Shown here piece by piece: positions 46,923 to 54,653 of a stretch of 64,000 bases of DNA. The stretch spans positions 6,600,501-6,664,500 of the forward strand of contig NZ_JAOTIK010000001.1 in the NCBI RefSeq assembly GCF_030116705.1, given 5' to 3'. The first letter of the stretch is position 1; the number at the start of each line of letters is the position of its first letter. This DNA comes from Streptomyces sp. ML-6 (GTDB taxonomy: Bacteria > Actinomycetota > Actinomycetes > Streptomycetales > Streptomycetaceae). The notes beneath the pieces were generated by a model that saw only the letters and a list, made by a program, of their open reading frames with translations, had not been told where the DNA came from and searched no databases. The position numbers and the translations under genes are program-made.

Positions 46923-49859
46923 TCATGGAGCATCGCGGTCCGTTACCGGCCCCCGCAACCTCGGCCGTTCGCCGGGGCCACCACCGGTGGGGGACGGGTA
47001 CACCGTCGCGTGTCTCAGGTACTGCTGGGCCGCCACCTCGACCACCTGCGGCAGGATCTGGCCGAACGCCTCCATGCTGGGCACGCCCCTGGCCGCGGGG
47101 CGGCAGTGGGCGCGCCCCTGGCGCATCAAGGACGGCATGGTCCGTTCGAGCTTCCCGGTCAGTTCGGCCTCGGCCGCCATGCTCTGCCGGTCCTCGCGGC
47201 TCCACGGCACGGCCGGAGCGATCCAGGGGCGGTTCTCGGCGTCGAAGGCGGCGAGCCTCCTGCGCCGGTCCTCGTCCTGGAGGGCCCAGCGGTCGACGAG
47301 CAGGATCTCGGGGCTGCCGGGCGGCTGCTTGCTGTTTCCGTGCTCCGTCTCCTCGTCGAAGGAGGTGATGGTGGCCTGGTAGTTGAGGGAGCGCACCAGG
47401 TCCTCGGCGACATAGGCCAGGGGGCGGGTGGTGGCGGGGTGGTAGGGGTTCCAGTCCTGCGCACTGTCGCCGTAGTAGTCGGCCAGGCGCCCCTCGGGCA
47501 GGTCGCGGCGAGTGGGGGCGACCACGGTGATCCGAATGGGGCGGGGCCCGGACGCGCTGTTGCGCGGGCCGAAGGCACTGGGGGCCTGTCGGTAGTCGAC
47601 CGGGCGCCCGGTGCCGATTCTGGTCGTATCGGCGACGTTGACGATGCGCCTGGCGAGCTTGTACACCGCGCGCTCGTACTCCTCGGCGAAGAGCCTGAGC
47701 TTGATGAGGCCGTAGAGCCCGTCGCTGGCGTAACGGTCCCCGAAGTCGCGGTGGTCGAACTGCAACCGCTCGGCCGGACCGGGGAGCTGGCTCGGCGGCA
47801 CGGGCACCCAGAGCGCCGGGACGATCGCCTCGGCCGGCTGGTTGGAGCGGGCCCGGTGGTGGATGGCGCGCTGCGCGAAGGCGTACCACTCCTTGCCGCA
47901 CATCTCACTGGCGAAGTAACGCGGCGAGAACAGCGGAACGAACACCCGGCAGGTGGCGAGCACCTCGCCGAGCCGCTCCGACCAGCCCTCGCCGGAGCGT
48001 ACTTCCCGGTCCATGAACCCCGCGGGCGCGCCCGCGGGCAGATCCGTCATGGCCGCCACGTGGTCACAGAGATCCCTGAAGAGGCGTTCGACCCACATGT
48101 CGGGGTCCGTTCCACCGCCGTACCCCGGGGTGTGGGCATAGCTCAGGAAGAAGTACGGGGCCGTCGCGCGGGCGGTGCTTCCTTCGAGCACGGTCGGGGC
48201 GGAGGAGACGAGGCGCCCCGACCCACCGGCCACCGACGTCCGGACAGGGGGCCCCACTGGTTCCGAGGGGGGCTCGGCAGGCGGGAGTTCGGCGGAGGCG
48301 GCCATCGTGAGGTCGGCCGGCTCCGGTGTTCGGGCCGGGATGCCCAGCGCCAGCAGGACACCGGTCGACACCTCGCCGAAGGGCTCGGGATCCATCGCGA
48401 TCCCGTCCGCCCCGGCTCCGGACACGGCGGCCCGGAAACGCGTGGGAGAGGCGGATTCACTCCTGACGAAACGGACCACGGCGCTGTGCAGGAGCCGGGC
48501 GTCCCGGGCGCCGAGCCTGGGCATGAGCTGCTCACGCGTGCCGTCCCGGAAGCGCAGTACGGGATGGCCGCCCGCCCGGGCGGCCTCGGTGATGGTGACG
48601 AGACCGCCGACGACGAACTCGGCCAGGTCGGAGGGCGTCGCCTCCGGGACCAGGTTCTGCTGGACGACCCGGAGCACATCGACGCTCACCTGCGGGTACA
48701 GCGAGCACAGCACGGCCAGCCGGACCGCGGCCGCGGACGCGCGGTGCAGATAGGCGTCCGTCAGGGACCGGCCGCTGCGCGGTCCCTCCTCGTCCTGTTC
48801 CACCAGCTGGTCGACGAGACCCGGCGCGGGCAGGAGCAGGGCTTCGCAGCCGGCGGGGTCCGAGAGCATGAGGGAGCGGGCCCAGCCGCCGATCGAGTGG
48901 GGCGACAGGGAGCTCACGGGGACCGGCAGCCAGTCCCGGTCGGTGGTGCCGGGAAACGCCTGGTTCATCAGGAGCGTGGTGACGAACCGCAGCCGGGCGT
49001 TGTGCGCGCCGGGCGTCCCGGGCGGGACCACGCGGACGGCCGGCAGGCTCATGCCCGTCTGCCGCCAGATCTTCGACGGCAACGGGTTGAGCAGGACGGT
49101 GGGCATGGCGGCGGCCCATGTGCGGAGCTGGTTCCACTGGGAGCCGTCGCGCCACGCGGCCGACGCCCAGTCGGAGAGGACGAGCATCAGCCGCCGCGAC
49201 GCGACGGACCTTCCGCCACCCTCCACGACGCGCTGCCCCAGCGGGCCGTGCAGGGCCGGTGTGCTCCCCGGCGCCCCGTCCAAGTGGAGCTCACGGACCC
49301 GCAGGGTGCGGAACACACCGGTGCGGGCCAGCAGACGCACCAGTTCGTCGGCCGTGCCCGCCCACACCGCCATGGTGGGGGAACGGTCGATGACCACGGT
49401 CGCGTCGAACCAGCGCTCCGGTTCGCCGGAGAACACCGGGGTGAGTTCGCCGGCGCGCGCGTAGTCGGCCACCGTCGCCGGGATGTCCAGTCGCTGCCTG
49501 CGCCCCCGCGGCCATGGCCGCTTCAATGGTTTCAGGGCCCGGGCCAGTTCCCGGCCGTGCGGCAGTGTGCTGTCGCGGGGCAGTGACACCCCGACCGCTC
49601 CCGGGCCCGGCGCACCGTCCTTCCAGGGCGTGTGCAGCGGGCTCCGCCGCGCGGCCCCGTCCGTCTCCGCCGACTGCCCGGCGTCCGCCGTCCGGGCGTC
49701 CGGCTCCTCCCGGCTCTCGGTGTCGCGGGTCCGCGGACCGTCGCTGTCGCCCCGGGCGGCGAGCCAGAGCAGCTCGGCGATCGACACCGCGTCGAGGTCC
49801 CTGCCCAGACCGAGCAGCGAGTCGACGACGGCACCCAGCCCGTCGGTCCGGTCAGGCAC
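46923..49859 (-). CDS. vWA-like / TIR / FxsC C-terminal-like fusion protein
   Basis: 978 aa. Residues about 150-270 resemble a vWA domain: WFDATVVIDRSPTMAVW gives a DxSxT-type MIDAS (158-162) and LMLVLSDW supplies Asp230. A helical middle (330-500) resembles the SAV_2336-type region. A TIR-like domain spans about 567-665: PYFFLSYAHTPGYGGG, FMDREVRSGEGW, VFVPLFSPRYFASEMCGKEW with Glu657 at the position of the NADase catalytic Glu. Residues 774-950 (IRITVVAPTRRDLPEGR, LADYYGDSAQDWNPYHP) match the FxsC C-terminal domain. Last gene of a coupled set with MoxR, caspase/VMAP and hydrolase. No FxsA or FxsB gene is nearby. Confidence 0.82.
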   Translation of the reverse strand: MPDRTDGLGAVVDSLLGLGRDLDAVSIAELLWLAARGDSDGPRTRDTESREEPDARTADAGQSAETDGAARRSPLHTPWKDGAPGPGAVGVSLPRDSTLPHGRELARALKPLKRPWPRGRRQRLDIPATVADYARAGELTPVFSGEPERWFDATVVIDRSPTMAVWAGTADELVRLLARTGVFRTLRVRELHLDGAPGSTPALHGPLGQRVVEGGGRSVASRRLMLVLSDWASAAWRDGSQWNQLRTWAAAMPTVLLNPLPSKIWRQTGMSLPAVRVVPPGTPGAHNARLRFVTTLLMNQAFPGTTDRDWLPVPVSSLSPHSIGGWARSLMLSDPAGCEALLLPAPGLVDQLVEQDEEGPRSGRSLTDAYLHRASAAAVRLAVLCSLYPQVSVDVLRVVQQNLVPEATPSDLAEFVVGGLVTITEAARAGGHPVLRFRDGTREQLMPRLGARDARLLHSAVVRFVRSESASPTRFRAAVSGAGADGIAMDPEPFGEVSTGVLLALGIPARTPEPADLTMAASAELPPAEPPSEPVGPPVRTSVAGGSGRLVSSAPTVLEGSTARATAPYFFLSYAHTPGYGGGTDPDMWVERLFRDLCDHVAAMTDLPAGAPAGFMDREVRSGEGWSERLGEVLATCRVFVPLFSPRYFASEMCGKEWYAFAQRAIHHRARSNQPAEAIVPALWVPVPPSQLPGPAERLQFDHRDFGDRYASDGLYGLIKLRLFAEEYERAVYKLARRIVNVADTTRIGTGRPVDYRQAPSAFGPRNSASGPRPIRITVVAPTRRDLPEGRLADYYGDSAQDWNPYHPATTRPLAYVAEDLVRSLNYQATITSFDEETEHGNSKQPPGSPEILLVDRWALQDEDRRRRLAAFDAENRPWIAPAVPWSREDRQSMAAEAELTGKLERTMPSLMRQGRAHCRPAARGVPSMEAFGQILPQVVEVAAQQYLRHATVYPSPTGGGPGERPRLRGPVTDRDAP

Positions 49860-50808
49860 CGGACAGGTTCTTCATCAGCAGCCCGATGAGCGCGCCGCGC
49901 TCCGACGCCGCCACCTTCGCCGGCCCGTCCAGCAGATGGAGGGTACTGAGCAACTGGTCGATCGCGACTCGCTCGCCGTCGCCCACCCGGCGCACGAAGT
50001 CGTCGACGAGATCGGCGAGCGGACCCGACCCGGGCACGTCGAGCCGCAGGTGCCTGCGCACGATCTCCCGGACGAGCTCCGGTGTGGGGCGGGGCATCGT
50101 GTAGCGCAGGCACCGCCGCAGGAACGGCGCGGGCAGCTCCTGCTCCCCGTTGCTCGTCATCACGATGAAGGGAAACTCGGTGCACTGCACATGGCCGTTG
50201 CGCACGGGGTACGCGGCGTCCCCGCCGAACATGCGCAGATGGGCGAGGTCCTGTCCCTCGCGGCGCAGTTCCTCGATGCGGAACTCGCCGCGTTCCAGCA
50301 CGTCGAGCAGGTCCCCGGGAAGATCCAGATCGGCCTTGTCGATCTCGTCGATGAGCAGGGCTCGCGGCCGGTCCGACGGCAGCAGCGCCGTTCCCAGCGG
50401 CCCCAGGGTCATGAACGCCGCGATGTCGTCGGTGCCGACGTCCCGCTCACCGGCGCGCGCCCGCTCCTGCTGCAGCCGGTGGGCGTGGATGCGCCCGAGG
50501 GCGTCGTAGTGGTACAGCGCGTCCCCGAGCGTGCTGCGCGAGGTCACGTGCCAGCGCAGTACGGGGCCCAGCGCGAGCTCCGCCGCGACCTGTTCGATCA
50601 CGGTGGACTTGCCCGTGCCCGGACTGCCCGTGATCAGCAGGGGCCGGCGCAGGGCGAGGGCCGCGTTGACCGCGGGGACGAGCCCCTCCGGCGGTTCGAA
50701 CAGCCCTGGGGACGGCACCCGGGGGAAGGTCCGCCACGGCGGCGGGTCGGGCAGCCGGGTGTCGTGCCGCACCTCTCCGTCGCCTCGGTAGTACGGGTTC
50801 CACGTCAT
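49852..50808 (-). CDS. MoxR-type AAA+ ATPase
   Basis: 318 aa from ATG 50808. Walker A GSPGTGKST (61-69), Walker B LLIDEIDKAD (151-160), sensor 1 Asn220 in IVMTSNGEQELPAPFLRRC with the arginine finger pair. This is the MoxR/BchI-like clade that works with vWA proteins. Between Walker A and B it carries the DDIAAFMTLGPLGTALLPS insert seen in conflict-system MoxRs. Starts inside the caspase gene end (ATGA) and overlaps the vWA-TIR gene by 8 nt, so all are translationally coupled. Confidence 0.9.
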   Translation of the reverse strand: MTWNPYYRGDGEVRHDTRLPDPPPWRTFPRVPSPGLFEPPEGLVPAVNAALALRRPLLITGSPGTGKSTVIEQVAAELALGPVLRWHVTSRSTLGDALYHYDALGRIHAHRLQQERARAGERDVGTDDIAAFMTLGPLGTALLPSDRPRALLIDEIDKADLDLPGDLLDVLERGEFRIEELRREGQDLAHLRMFGGDAAYPVRNGHVQCTEFPFIVMTSNGEQELPAPFLRRCLRYTMPRPTPELVREIVRRHLRLDVPGSGPLADLVDDFVRRVGDGERVAIDQLLSTLHLLDGPAKVAASERGALIGLLMKNLSGA

Positions 50809-52868
50809 GAGGTTTCCTCGATCGTGTTCTGGACGGGGGGAACGGTGGTTCGCACGAGCCGGCAGAACCTCAGCCATGCCCGGTCGTCCCAGACCGCGCG
50901 CAGATCGGCGAGGTGGTCGGCGCACTCGCCGCGCCATCGCCGCTGGTAGGCGTGGCCGAGCCCTTCCGGCATGGTCAGCCACTGCGGCTCCAGGCAGTGG
51001 TGCCGGTCGACGGGGAACCCCTCCGTTCCCTGGGGCCACAGCAGTACCGGGGTGTAGGAGAGGAGGATTTCCATCAACTGGTCGTCCAGTCCGGTGTGGT
51101 GCGTCAGGCCGATGGCCCGCCGGTACAGGCCGTCCCGCAACTTGCCCTGCAACGGCGGCCGTTCGGCCGTGTCGGAGACGTCTAGCCAGTCGACGGGCAC
51201 TCCGGTGCAGGCGGCGATCTCCTCCCACCGCTCGTTCACCGCGCCCTGGATCCGTCGCAGCAGGGGATCGGGGGCGAGCCGACGGCTCCAGTGCAGCACG
51301 ACGTCGTACTGCACCCCGAAACGCAGGCCCCGGCCGGCCTCCTCCGGGCGCCACTCCAGCAGTACACCGCTCGGCACCGCGACATCGAGCCACCTCAGCC
51401 GCAGCCCAAGCGCCTCCGCATGATCCTCCGCCCAGACGGCCGCCTCCTCGACCGCGGCCTCCGCACCCGCCCGGTCCACCGTGGGGCAGTCGAAGTCCTG
51501 CCGTTCGAGCAGTTCCCCGTCCCGGAGCAGCCACGCGCTCACGGCTTCCGGCCAGCCACCCGTCAGCGAGGAGTCGAGGCTGACGGCGAGCCTCAGCTGC
51601 TGGTCCTCCCGGTCGTCGAGGACCTTCGCCACGGCGTCGTTGAGTTCCTGCTGGGCGTCCACGGACCGCGCCCACGCGTGCAGTTCCGAAGAGGTCAGGT
51701 CCTTGCCCGAGGCGAGGGCGAGGCGCACCACGAACTCGGCGACCGAAGGTTTGCCGTTGCTCCGGGTCACCGCGTGGTCGAAGACCAGCCGGTCCAGGAT
51801 CGCGATGTCGGTGAACTCGGGCAACGGGGAGGACAGCGCGCGGTGTTCCGATACCAGCAGGGCCCGCAGGGCCTGACGCAGCCGGGCCGTCGTCAGCTCG
51901 CCACCGATCCAGCCGCGGAGGAACCCGACGGTCCGCAGTGCGGTGAGGGCGAAGAGCACAACCTCCCTGGCCCGGTCACGGGCCGGGGAGGGGGGAAGAG
52001 CGCTGAGCGCCTTCAGGAGGTCGAGCGCGGACTGCACGTCGTGCGGCACGTGCGGGACGGACACGGTGGCGGGCAGTGCGCCGAACGCCTCGGTGAGGTC
52101 CTCGTGCGCCAGCCGCCCGAGGAGCCCACCGGGGTCGGCGTCGCGGTCCTGCGTGTTGCGGGTGACCCAGACGCGCCCCGTCGCGAAGGGGTCGCCGTCG
52201 TGCTGGAAGACCGTCACATCCTGCCCGACGACCGATTCGCGCAGCGCCCGCTGCACGTCGTCCACCCCCAGCAAAGGGCCCGCCCCGGGCACGCCCTTCC
52301 TGATCAGCTCAGTGAGCGCCCGGGAGAACGAGAGGTCGACCGCCTGCTGGGTGAGCGACGCGGACATCAGCACGGCGAGTCGGCTGCGCCCGTTGCCGGC
52401 ACCGCCCGTGAGGTCCTGGCCCGGGGGTGTCGCACCGGCGGCGTGGCAGGTGTCGACGATGCCGAGCACGCTGGGGATGCCGGGCCTGTTCGCGGCAGCG
52501 GCGAGGAGTTCGCCCACGTTGACCGCCCGTTCGGGCGCGTCCTCGACGGAGTCGGCGCCCATCAGGTACAGCGTGTGCGTGCTTCCGGGCACGAATCCGT
52601 GCCCCAGCAGGACGAGGACGAGTGAGGCACCCCGGTCCTCGGCATGGCTGATCGCCGCACCGATCAGCGTCCGGATCCAGTTGCTCGTCAGCCGCTCGTC
52701 GACGACCAGGGAACGTCCGTCGGGGAGCCCCGGAGCACAGTCCCCCATGTCCGGGTCGGCCAGCGCGGCATGCAACGCCGAGGCCGCCTCCCCGAGGCGG
52801 GTGAGATGCCGCATCGACGCGCACTGGGGTGCCACGACGAGAAGGTGACGCGGGGGCTCCTCACTCAT
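50805..52868 (-). CDS. Caspase-like peptidase fused to VMAP-C-like domain
   Basis: 687 aa from ATG 52868. N-terminal caspase-like (C14) domain: LVLVLLGHGF with catalytic His90 and VLGIVDTCHAAGA with Cys141, so the dyad is intact. Residues 275-410 are helical (LDLLKALSALP, VVLFALTALRTVGFLRGW). Residues about 425-670 match the VMAP-C pattern: AVSLDSSL...AVSAWLLRDGELL, RLRWLDVAVPSGVLLEW, FGVQYDVVLHWSRRL. In known ternary systems VMAP carries an N-terminal effector and is regulated by MoxR and vWA partners. Family assignment of the C-terminal part is from pattern memory. Confidence 0.8.
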   Translation of the reverse strand: MSEEPPRHLLVVAPQCASMRHLTRLGEAASALHAALADPDMGDCAPGLPDGRSLVVDERLTSNWIRTLIGAAISHAEDRGASLVLVLLGHGFVPGSTHTLYLMGADSVEDAPERAVNVGELLAAAANRPGIPSVLGIVDTCHAAGATPPGQDLTGGAGNGRSRLAVLMSASLTQQAVDLSFSRALTELIRKGVPGAGPLLGVDDVQRALRESVVGQDVTVFQHDGDPFATGRVWVTRNTQDRDADPGGLLGRLAHEDLTEAFGALPATVSVPHVPHDVQSALDLLKALSALPPSPARDRAREVVLFALTALRTVGFLRGWIGGELTTARLRQALRALLVSEHRALSSPLPEFTDIAILDRLVFDHAVTRSNGKPSVAEFVVRLALASGKDLTSSELHAWARSVDAQQELNDAVAKVLDDREDQQLRLAVSLDSSLTGGWPEAVSAWLLRDGELLERQDFDCPTVDRAGAEAAVEEAAVWAEDHAEALGLRLRWLDVAVPSGVLLEWRPEEAGRGLRFGVQYDVVLHWSRRLAPDPLLRRIQGAVNERWEEIAACTGVPVDWLDVSDTAERPPLQGKLRDGLYRRAIGLTHHTGLDDQLMEILLSYTPVLLWPQGTEGFPVDRHHCLEPQWLTMPEGLGHAYQRRWRGECADHLADLRAVWDDRAWLRFCRLVRTTVPPVQNTIEETS

Positions 52869-53841
52869 GGGGCGCGGACAAGAGGGCTTCCGCGACGGGG
52901 CCCGCGACGGCGGCCTGGGCCAGGTACTTCCCGGCGGAATGGACCCAGATCCCGTCCGAGTCGATCCGGCTGCTGCGGGGAAGCACCCCGGCCGCGTTGG
53001 CCGCCACATCGCGTTCGAGCAGGGGGCGGATGGCGATGATGTCGTCCTTGTCCCAGAAGTTCAGCCATCGTTCGACGCGCTCGGGTGTGCGCGGCGGCTG
53101 CGGCAGGAGCCTGGGCCGGACGACCGTACGCGTCGAGAGCGGTGACCCGAGCGTGACGAGGAGGGGAGTGGCCGCCCGGTGCTCGTGCAGTGCCTCCAGT
53201 GCGACGACGGTCCCCAGGGAGTGCGCCACCACCACCGCCGGGGCGTCCCCGAGCGCCTCGTGCAGACGGTTGCGTACGCGGCGGTCGAGGGTCAGCCCGG
53301 ACGCGTCCTTCTCCCCGCGCGCCAGATAGCGCGACACCTGGGCGAGGTCCCTGACCATCAGCTTGGGAGTCGCCCAGCGCGCGACACCGCTCCACGGCTT
53401 GAGCGCCATCAGGGTGGTCGCCACGTTCAGTGCCCTGCGCAGTGCCGACAGGCTTCCCTGGGCCTGGCCGGACGTGCCGGCCTCGGCACGGGCGTGGGCC
53501 AGGATCCGTTCCCGGTTGCGCCAGGCACCGTCATGGGGCGCCCCGGTGGCGGAGTGCTCGGCCGCGAGGGTGGTCACCAGCTCGACGAGGAGGTCTTCGA
53601 GGATCTCGCCCGCGTCGCCCTCGGCCGTCGTCCCGCCGCCGCCCTGGGCCTCGGGGGGCGAGAAGAGATCGGCGTAGGAGGCGAAGACACAACGGTCCGC
53701 GTCCGTGGTGGTCAGCCGCTCGGCGAGTGCCGTGTGCCCGGCTGCCCGCATCCCGTCCGCCAGCGCGCCCGCCCATTCGGCCAGTTCGCGTTCGGCATCC
53801 CGGGGCCCGCCTATTCCGTGCACGAAAACCAACCGCGGCAC
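52861..53841 (-). CDS. Alpha/beta hydrolase (lipase-like) of the conflict operon
   Basis: 326 aa from GTG 53841 (GGGGAGG 8 bp upstream; TTG 53844 possible). It opens PRLVFVHGIGGPRDAERELAEWAGAL, has nucleophile Ser208 in VVVAHSLGTVVALEAL, and the terminal DSDGIWVHSAGKYL may give the His. Hydrolases of this sort can act as lipases, esterases or peptidases. The stop lies 8 nt inside the caspase gene, so it is the first gene of the coupled set and probably an effector or processing factor. Confidence 0.8.
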   Translation of the reverse strand: MPRLVFVHGIGGPRDAERELAEWAGALADGMRAAGHTALAERLTTTDADRCVFASYADLFSPPEAQGGGGTTAEGDAGEILEDLLVELVTTLAAEHSATGAPHDGAWRNRERILAHARAEAGTSGQAQGSLSALRRALNVATTLMALKPWSGVARWATPKLMVRDLAQVSRYLARGEKDASGLTLDRRVRNRLHEALGDAPAVVVAHSLGTVVALEALHEHRAATPLLVTLGSPLSTRTVVRPRLLPQPPRTPERVERWLNFWDKDDIIAIRPLLERDVAANAAGVLPRSSRIDSDGIWVHSAGKYLAQAAVAGPVAEALLSAPHE

Positions 53842-53909
53842 CAAGTGAACCTCCCCTGCGCGTCGTTCGTCCCGAGGCTACCAACCGAGTCGCCGCCCGC
53901 CCATGCCGT

Positions 53910-54653
53910 TCAGCCCGTGGCCCGGTGGGAGTTGCGCGGTACCGGGACGGGCGCCTGCGCGGCACGGGTCACGTCCGCGACGAGTTCCACCACGTCGGGG
54001 CCGTACGCCTGCGAGTTGACGACCTTCAGCAACAGGCAGAAGGTGTGGTCGCCGTACTTGCGGAACAGCTTCTCGTGGTTGCGGGCCAGGTAGCGGGAGG
54101 CCGCCTGGTTGGTGATCGCCTGCTGACCGCAGAACAGGAAGACGGGGCGCGCGTCCTGACCGACCGTCAGCCGGGCCAGCAGCACGTGCTCGGCTACCCC
54201 CTTCTCGGCCCGGTAGCGCTCCGTGCCGATCTGGAAGGCACCCCGGTCGGGGCCGGGCTCGGCGCTGGTGTTCACCTTCACGCCGGGCAGCAGGGAATGG
54301 AGGTGCGCGGCCATCCGTCGGTTCGAGACCGGCCCGCCCACGCAGAATTCGGTGCGCTCGCCGAAGCCCTGCTGCGCGACGTCGTGGGACACGATCTGCG
54401 CGTGGGCGGAGCAGTCCTTGATGAGCGCGGAGAGTTCGAGCAGGGCGAAGACGTCGTGGCGGTGGACGGAGCCGTCACCGCCCGCGTCGCGGTTGACGAC
54501 GAGCAGGCACTCGGAATTGCCCGGGAGCCCGAAGAAGGCCTGCTTGCGGCGGAGTTTGCGGCGCCAGAGGTAGGTGCGGGTGAGCCAGCCCAGCGAGGCG
54601 CTGATGCCGGCGGCTATCACGCCCAGCAGGATGTTGCGTACGTCGTCCGTCAT
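53910..54653 (-). CDS. Membrane-anchored protein of unknown function upstream of the conflict operon
   Basis: 247 aa from ATG 54653. One N-terminal membrane helix (about 7-25, ILLGVIAAGISASLGWLT), a basic stretch (RRKLRRKQ), then a cytosolic alpha/beta domain: SECLLVVNRDAG, LLELSALIKDC, FCVGGPVSNRRMAAHLHSLLPGV, VFLFCGQQAITNQAASRYLARNH, FCLLLKVVN. The GGPxSN and the alternating strands suggest a Rossmann-like ligand-binding or hydrolase fold. Same strand and 68 bp before the hydrolase, so probably the leader gene of the same transcript. -10-like TACCAT (54667-54662) suggests near-leaderless expression. Not recognised by family. Confidence 0.72.
   Translation of the reverse strand: MTDDVRNILLGVIAAGISASLGWLTRTYLWRRKLRRKQAFFGLPGNSECLLVVNRDAGGDGSVHRHDVFALLELSALIKDCSAHAQIVSHDVAQQGFGERTEFCVGGPVSNRRMAAHLHSLLPGVKVNTSAEPGPDRGAFQIGTERYRAEKGVAEHVLLARLTVGQDARPVFLFCGQQAITNQAASRYLARNHEKLFRKYGDHTFCLLLKVVNSQAYGPDVVELVADVTRAAQAPVPVPRNSHRATG

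Follow-up and report, generated by a model that had tools for sequence, protein, structure and literature searches.

What kind of system is encoded by four overlapping genes in a 64,000-nucleotide stretch of Streptomyces sp. ML-6 (the window hereafter; host genome 9.13 Mb, 5 contigs), and where did its TIR-bearing effector come from? From the letters alone, a first-pass annotation had proposed a vWA-MoxR-VMAP ternary conflict system with caspase, TIR and hydrolase parts. Family models, folds, conserved residues and synteny bear this out, and genes B, C, D and E almost certainly form a VMAP-type ternary conflict cassette, as judged from sequences and predicted structures. The FxsC module that carries the TIR domain was very probably copied, or re-copied, from the lineage's own standalone FxsC, which belongs to an FxSxx-COOH peptide locus. 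The five open frames concerned (A–E) were all confirmed. Genes B (52861–53844, 327 aa; start TTG at 53844, with GTG at 53841 possible), C (50805–52868, 687 aa), D (49852–50808, 318 aa) and E (46923–49859, 978 aa, GTG start) lie on the minus strand, as do all domains described below, and their overlaps of 8 nt (E/D), 4 nt (D/C, ATGA) and 8 nt (C/B) agree with the 4–8 nt first noted. The domain calls made at that stage (alpha/beta hydrolase, caspase-like/VMAP, MoxR ATPase and vWA-like/TIR fusion) likewise hold by family models.

The VMAP protein C consists of a caspase domain (52149–52868, residues 1–240, with His90 and Cys141), a VMAP-M2 middle region (51630–52283, residues 196–413; PF19965, E 2.6e-59) and a VMAP-C-like end (50844–51551, residues 440–675). 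The NCBIfam caspase model matched C with E 1.5e-13, under the model cut-off, and matched 48/48 aligned VMAP proteins at E ≤0.001, also under cut-off; VMAP-M2 was present in all 48. The caspase fold of C is backed by structural comparison, with the His-Cys dyad within that fold, and we take His90 and Cys141 to be the equivalents of the MALT1 dyad by motif (LGHG and DTC) rather than by an aligner. A Pfam search of C gave no direct match to VMAP-C. The corresponding profile, PF20028, was over its cut-off in one of the 48 VMAP proteins, P0039 (41% identical to C), in which nearly the whole profile matched residues 430–647 (E 1.5e-10), the place expected for VMAP-C. Comparison of the C end with VMAP-C by hhalign, in which 19 of 30 domains were used (11 were dropped for stops in the reading frame or for being too short), gave E 0.002 at a low probability of 14%, the three controls giving E 0.6–0.94. 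The closest named relatives of C are in Streptomyces (94% identity in Streptomyces sp. sk2.1), and databases already label its relatives 'vWA-MoxR associated conflict system protein'.

Directly upstream of the caspase VMAP lies the hydrolase gene B, which is present in 36/37 relatives and matches PF00561 with E 1.7e-5 and 25 bits, just under the cut-off of 25.8. Ser209, Asp265 and His302 of B are identical in 37/37 aligned rows and likely constitute its catalytic triad, the choice of Asp being presumptive. Gene D matches PF07728 (E 5.2e-8) and contains a Walker A (GSPGTGKS), a Walker B (LLIDE) and an N-terminal P-P-W-R-T-F motif; Gly61, Gly64, Gly66, Lys67, Ser68, Asp154, Glu155, Pro24, Trp25 and Arg26 are each found in 35/35 rows. 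The MoxR proteins of VMAP ternary systems are described as having WxhapG and PsWRxa motifs ahead of the AAA domain (Kaur et al. 2020, PMC7159879; here and below, cited papers are represented by excerpts of their text). The P-P-W-R-T-F of D fits PsWRxa, and its counterpart of WxhapG is inexact, with one residue extra (W-N-P-Y-Y-R-G). PADLOC gave nothing beyond weak AAA matches to D.

Protein E exceeds three NCBIfam cut-offs, those of NF041121 (SAV_2336 N-terminal, E 6.5e-101), of the TIR-like FxsC N-terminal model NF040588 (E 5.1e-70, 235 bits, cut-off 130) and of the FxsC C-terminal model TIGR04276 (E 8.4e-69, 231 bits, cut-off 55). A vWA domain (48825–49562, residues ~100–345), with Asp158-Arg-Ser160-Pro-Thr162 and Asp230 resembling a metal ion-dependent adhesion site, is followed by a disordered linker (48159–48452, residues 470–567; the proposed cleavage and joining region), the TIR domain or N-terminal part of FxsC (47622–48158, residues 568–746, with Glu657) and the FxsC C-terminal domain (46980–47543, residues ~773–960). 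In a structure model based on an alignment of 71 of 155 relatives (120 of the 155 were listed), the predicted local distance difference test score is below 50 across nearly all of residues 470–564 and mostly above 90 in the FxsC C-terminal domain, and residues 5–36 and 363–468 are mostly helical, forming extensions of the vWA domain. Structural comparison upheld the caspase and TIR folds named in the first-pass annotation and gave a weaker match for the vWA fold. PDB sequence searches with two profiles returned chance matches only. By its C-x-x-E motif, Glu657 is presumably the known catalytic Glu of TIR domains; the end of E would then combine a TIR fold with the catalytic Glu of TIR NADases, and any NADase activity is a prediction. 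The original call of a TIR end was right but missed its identity as FxsC, which it has in common with the FxSxx-COOH locus of its own genome; databases already label relatives of E 'TIR-like protein FxsC'.

The grouping of these genes is more than chance, since B, C, D and a vWA gene stand in this order at 33/37 other loci. The exceptions are L063, which is without D, L091, without B and the start of C, and L093 and L094, which have B and the start of C only; in L065 the vWA gene is split in two. The cassette is patchy, occurring in 38/392 genomes, and its site is occupied by other genes in two relatives (G140 and G171), while the effector behind the vWA domain varies between cassettes. These three observations fit a conflict system better than a developmental or stress regulator whose caspase would cut a few cellular targets in hyphal differentiation. 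That alternative draws on the fact that caspase-like genes are common in Streptomyces, and no phage link was found, none having been sought beyond the family libraries; we consider it unlikely, and a predicted role against invaders is the most likely one.

Cassettes of this type carry a fused FxsC in 12/38 genomes including that of the window, or in 11 when the remote FxsC-like end of G022 is set aside. The union of TIR and caspase in a single operon recalls type IV Thoeris, in which N7-cADPR activates a caspase-like protease (PMC12847820), and signalling might run likewise here, in reverse of the order proposed below, with the TIR domain of E producing an isomer of cyclic ADP-ribose by which the caspase of C is switched on. 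However, an FxsC-like end is found on E in only 11/37 relatives, to which L081 adds another TIR/SEFIR domain, and the remaining relatives keep the caspase gene with other effectors or none. Because the caspase is kept where the TIR is absent, the TIR is not a general activator, and such reverse signalling seems improbable; the window also differs from type IV Thoeris in having MoxR, vWA and VMAP parts, and in belonging to a wider cassette family in which the TIR is dispensable.

How, then, did FxsC come to stand behind the vWA domain? The genome's own standalone FxsC is located at C1:1373089–1374321, and the genome's best FxsB match stands beside it at C1:1375709–1376797, with an FxsA-like frame ending in FSSAL adjoining the two. 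This FxSxx-COOH locus is ~5.3 Mb from the cassette; FxsA and FxsB genes are not found beside the cassette FxsC, and no FxsA-like (FxSxx-COOH) frame was found in the part of the window from 44 to 58 kb. The cassette FxsC and the standalone copy share 92.3% DNA identity over 1215 positions, the likeness beginning exactly at the TIR domain and ending near the gene end. In a core tree of B, C and D, comprising the 34/38 loci with all three genes (L063 lies outside it, as do the cassettes of S. griseus, rh34 and sk2.1, which identity places near the window), the window paired with G028 (100/100) and the FxsC cassettes fell into three groups.

In the FxsC trees, fused copies were dispersed among standalone ones, with at least 9 forced changes in a tree of 60 rows and at least 7 in a second tree of 59 rows. 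For the second tree, 14 remote FxsC-like rows (among them the additional FxsC-like genes that G132 and G278 have) had been taken out and 13 put in; 19 of its rows are labelled fused, and for three of these (L115, L116 and L239) membership of this cassette type is not shown. The cassette FxsC of the window and of sk2.1 (100/100) formed the sister group of the standalone FxsC of the same two genomes (100/98). Constraining the window and G028 cassette FxsC to group together cost 62.9 log units (p 0.004), and joining those of the window, sk2.1, S. griseus, rh34 and G028 gave p 6e-5, or p 2e-7 without G028, the tested groups having been picked by cassette relatedness (G028 from the core tree, the others by identity) with the FxsC trees seen beforehand. 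On these three values, one old fusion followed by vertical descent of FxsC is rejected for the window's group. Among the 14 fused copies with a same-genome standalone in the set, 8 have that standalone as the nearest or second nearest of 40; the other six do not, and have long branches (L059, L060 and L237) or arrays of TPR units (L086, L089 and L239).

The likeness of cassette and standalone FxsC could in principle reflect an old duplication with vertical descent rather than copying. Both forms occur together in 15/16 FxsC-fused genomes, and a single origin of a second FxsC group (G260, G236, G278 and G132 as one clade) was not rejected by the approximately unbiased test (p 0.074). Against this stand the rejection of the grouping that it predicts for the FxsC of related cassettes, by the two five- and four-member constraints above, and a synonymous distance of 0.146 between the window copy and its own standalone, compared with 0.405 for the own standalone against that of G190; we regard descent of this kind as very unlikely. 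Taken with ratios of nonsynonymous to synonymous change of 0.45 and 0.13 for the same two pairs, the distances indicate that the copy is younger than the split between the own and G190 standalone genes and that its protein has changed faster since. Most of the excess protein change falls in the stretch that separates the two FxsC domains, with 79% identity in nt 600–720 versus 89–99% in the other full stretches, a range that leaves out the ragged end of the alignment. No 120-nt stretch of FxsC was nearer the S. griseus cassette copy than the own standalone in a mosaic check, in which stretch 600–720 was slightly nearer the G190 standalone (81 vs 79%). We also observed that the inter-domain segment (window ~47439–47558) is far more diverged than the rest in cassette copies, the window genome's standalone copy and that of sk2.1 being 97% alike in it.

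Copying of this kind may arise from plain recombination between like genes, but it would also fit a cassette FxsC that has to correspond to some resident component, hence the reading of FxsC as a bait or plug. Within the 392-genome set, standalone FxsC was found in 11/11 FxsC-fused genomes versus 11/26 other caspase-VMAP genomes, of which G033 counted on a weak match (Fisher 9e-4), and in four of five further fused genomes (in pieces in rh34), ISL-98 having none. FxsB was over its cut-off in 16/16 fused genomes (G028 by E-value) versus 16/26 others. A strict need of fused FxsC for standalone FxsC is not upheld, given that ISL-98 lacks the latter though FxsB is present there, and the link of the fused FxsC to the peptide locus is suggestive, not proven.

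It is conceivable, if doubtful, that the FxsC end serves as a built-in bait or plug and not as the main weapon, so that an intruder factor which attacks or binds FxsC, or else the FxSxx peptide itself, would act on E too and fire the MoxR-caspase switch. Several cassette FxsC copies nest with their own lineage's standalone copy, the co-occurrence of standalone FxsC and FxsB with fused genomes points the same way, and effectors that are copies of cellular enzymes are discussed as decoys by Kaur et al. (PMC7159879). On the other hand, the TIR Glu is retained, which argues that the cassette copy is not simply a dead bait; the kinship-corrected co-occurrence test lacked power, with no more than 3 independent pairs (median p 0.5); FxsB is common anyway, at 223/392 genomes overall; and the ISL-98 case and mere ease of recombination both weaken the inference. 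The fuller version, in which the cassette FxsC has been repeatedly re-copied from the resident FxSxx-COOH locus as it must match a resident partner and serves as a self-derived bait or receptor tying the peptide pathway to the caspase switch, is put forward only tentatively. If it were true, self-derived immune-receptor baits would have arisen in bacteria too, as a counterpart of the integrated decoys of plants.

Starting from the genes, their order, the caspase and TIR folds and the conserved catalytic residues, as observed in sequences and models, we propose that the cassette acts by killing or arresting the infected compartment of a hypha, a mechanism to which, as a whole, we give even chances. 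At rest, C, D and E would be held in an inactive complex. A trigger would be sensed via the middle and C-terminal regions of VMAP, whereupon the vWA-coupled MoxR ATPase would remodel the complex; the caspase of C, once activated, would cut the linker of E and free the FxsC module, whose TIR domains would assemble and consume NAD+ or make an NAD-derived signal. Hydrolase B would be switched on in the same event and attack lipid, and we infer that one MoxR switch governs all three activities. MoxR-driven remodelling, caspase activation and release of the vWA-borne effector follow the account of Kaur et al. 2020 (PMC7159879), and the opposite direction, with vWA as the sensor and the VMAP effector as the weapon, has been proposed for relatives bearing diversity-generating retroelements (PMC10907252).

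The cassette type is already known as a prediction, and its parts already bear database names. VMAP ternary systems, tabulated for hundreds of multicellular bacteria (Table 1, PMC7159879), include a caspase and alpha/beta-hydrolase type with the same VMAP-MoxR-vWA order, caspase on VMAP, hydrolase neighbour and variable effectors behind vWA. That account already describes as recurrent both the pairing of hydrolase with caspase and vWA proteins that bear TIR domains; as a new combination, the first-pass proposal was therefore overstated. What distinguishes the window is its effector, FxsC, which is nowhere named in the main text of that paper (its supplementary data not covered). According to the same text, the hydrolase-caspase pairing and peptide-processing parts also exclude one another, whereas the window fuses a protein of the FxSxx locus into a caspase-type cassette. 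Canu and other protease-activated effector systems (PMC12799240) likewise have a caspase-family protease beside an effector in a defence context, but the effector there is a nuclease proenzyme rather than FxsC/TIR, and the account of canu has no MoxR-vWA switch. Among the matches listed in the open-access literature, we found no bench test of any VMAP ternary system and no paper on the fusion of FxsC to the cassette or its copying, supplementary files and subscription papers lying outside this scope. Since the four-gene cassette is compact, its caspase and TIR residues are kept and the near-identical standalone FxsC provides a natural internal control, two questions become directly testable: whether the VMAP caspase cuts the vWA-borne effector, and why some effectors resemble resident proteins. 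Copying offers a testable idea of how such cassettes gain and keep parts.

Upstream of B lies gene A (53910–54653), which encodes a probably membrane-anchored protein without a family match and had been counted as part of the system. The gap of 68 bp first given between A and B applies with the GTG start of B and becomes 65 bp with the TTG start. Gene A is found in 176/199 genomes of the genus (62–90% identity among the matches listed, its own row aside), and none of the other 37 cassette stretches holds a relative of it; only in Streptomyces sp. sk2.1, whose locus is near-identical, does gene A again stand alongside the cassette. Being widespread in the genus and missing from those 37, gene A is rejected as a cassette part.

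Several further loci deserve mention. In L063 and L199 (Streptomyces sp. ISL-43) there is no MoxR match and the first ~150 vWA residues are missing, VMAP and FxsC being open; this state is a natural truncation. L218 (Streptomyces sp. APSN-46.1) keeps the hydrolase but looks degraded: VMAP and MoxR are partly matched, vWA and FxsC nowhere in the stretch. Long arrays of near-identical, ~42-residue TPR-like units precede FxsC in L086 and L089, and L239, judging by the length of its frame and its position in the tree, presumably has one too. FxsC is joined to another long protein in L116 (G242), and in L115 (G403) it follows a different kind of MoxR-vWA pair (MoxR 49% and vWA 29% identical). Finally, the window's own genome carries a second VMAP ternary system (L053, C1:5472001–5486000), in which VMAP-C was matched with E 3.5e-41, the MoxR-like gene starts with an exact W-L-I-Y-R-G motif and the vWA protein is ~1200 aa long.

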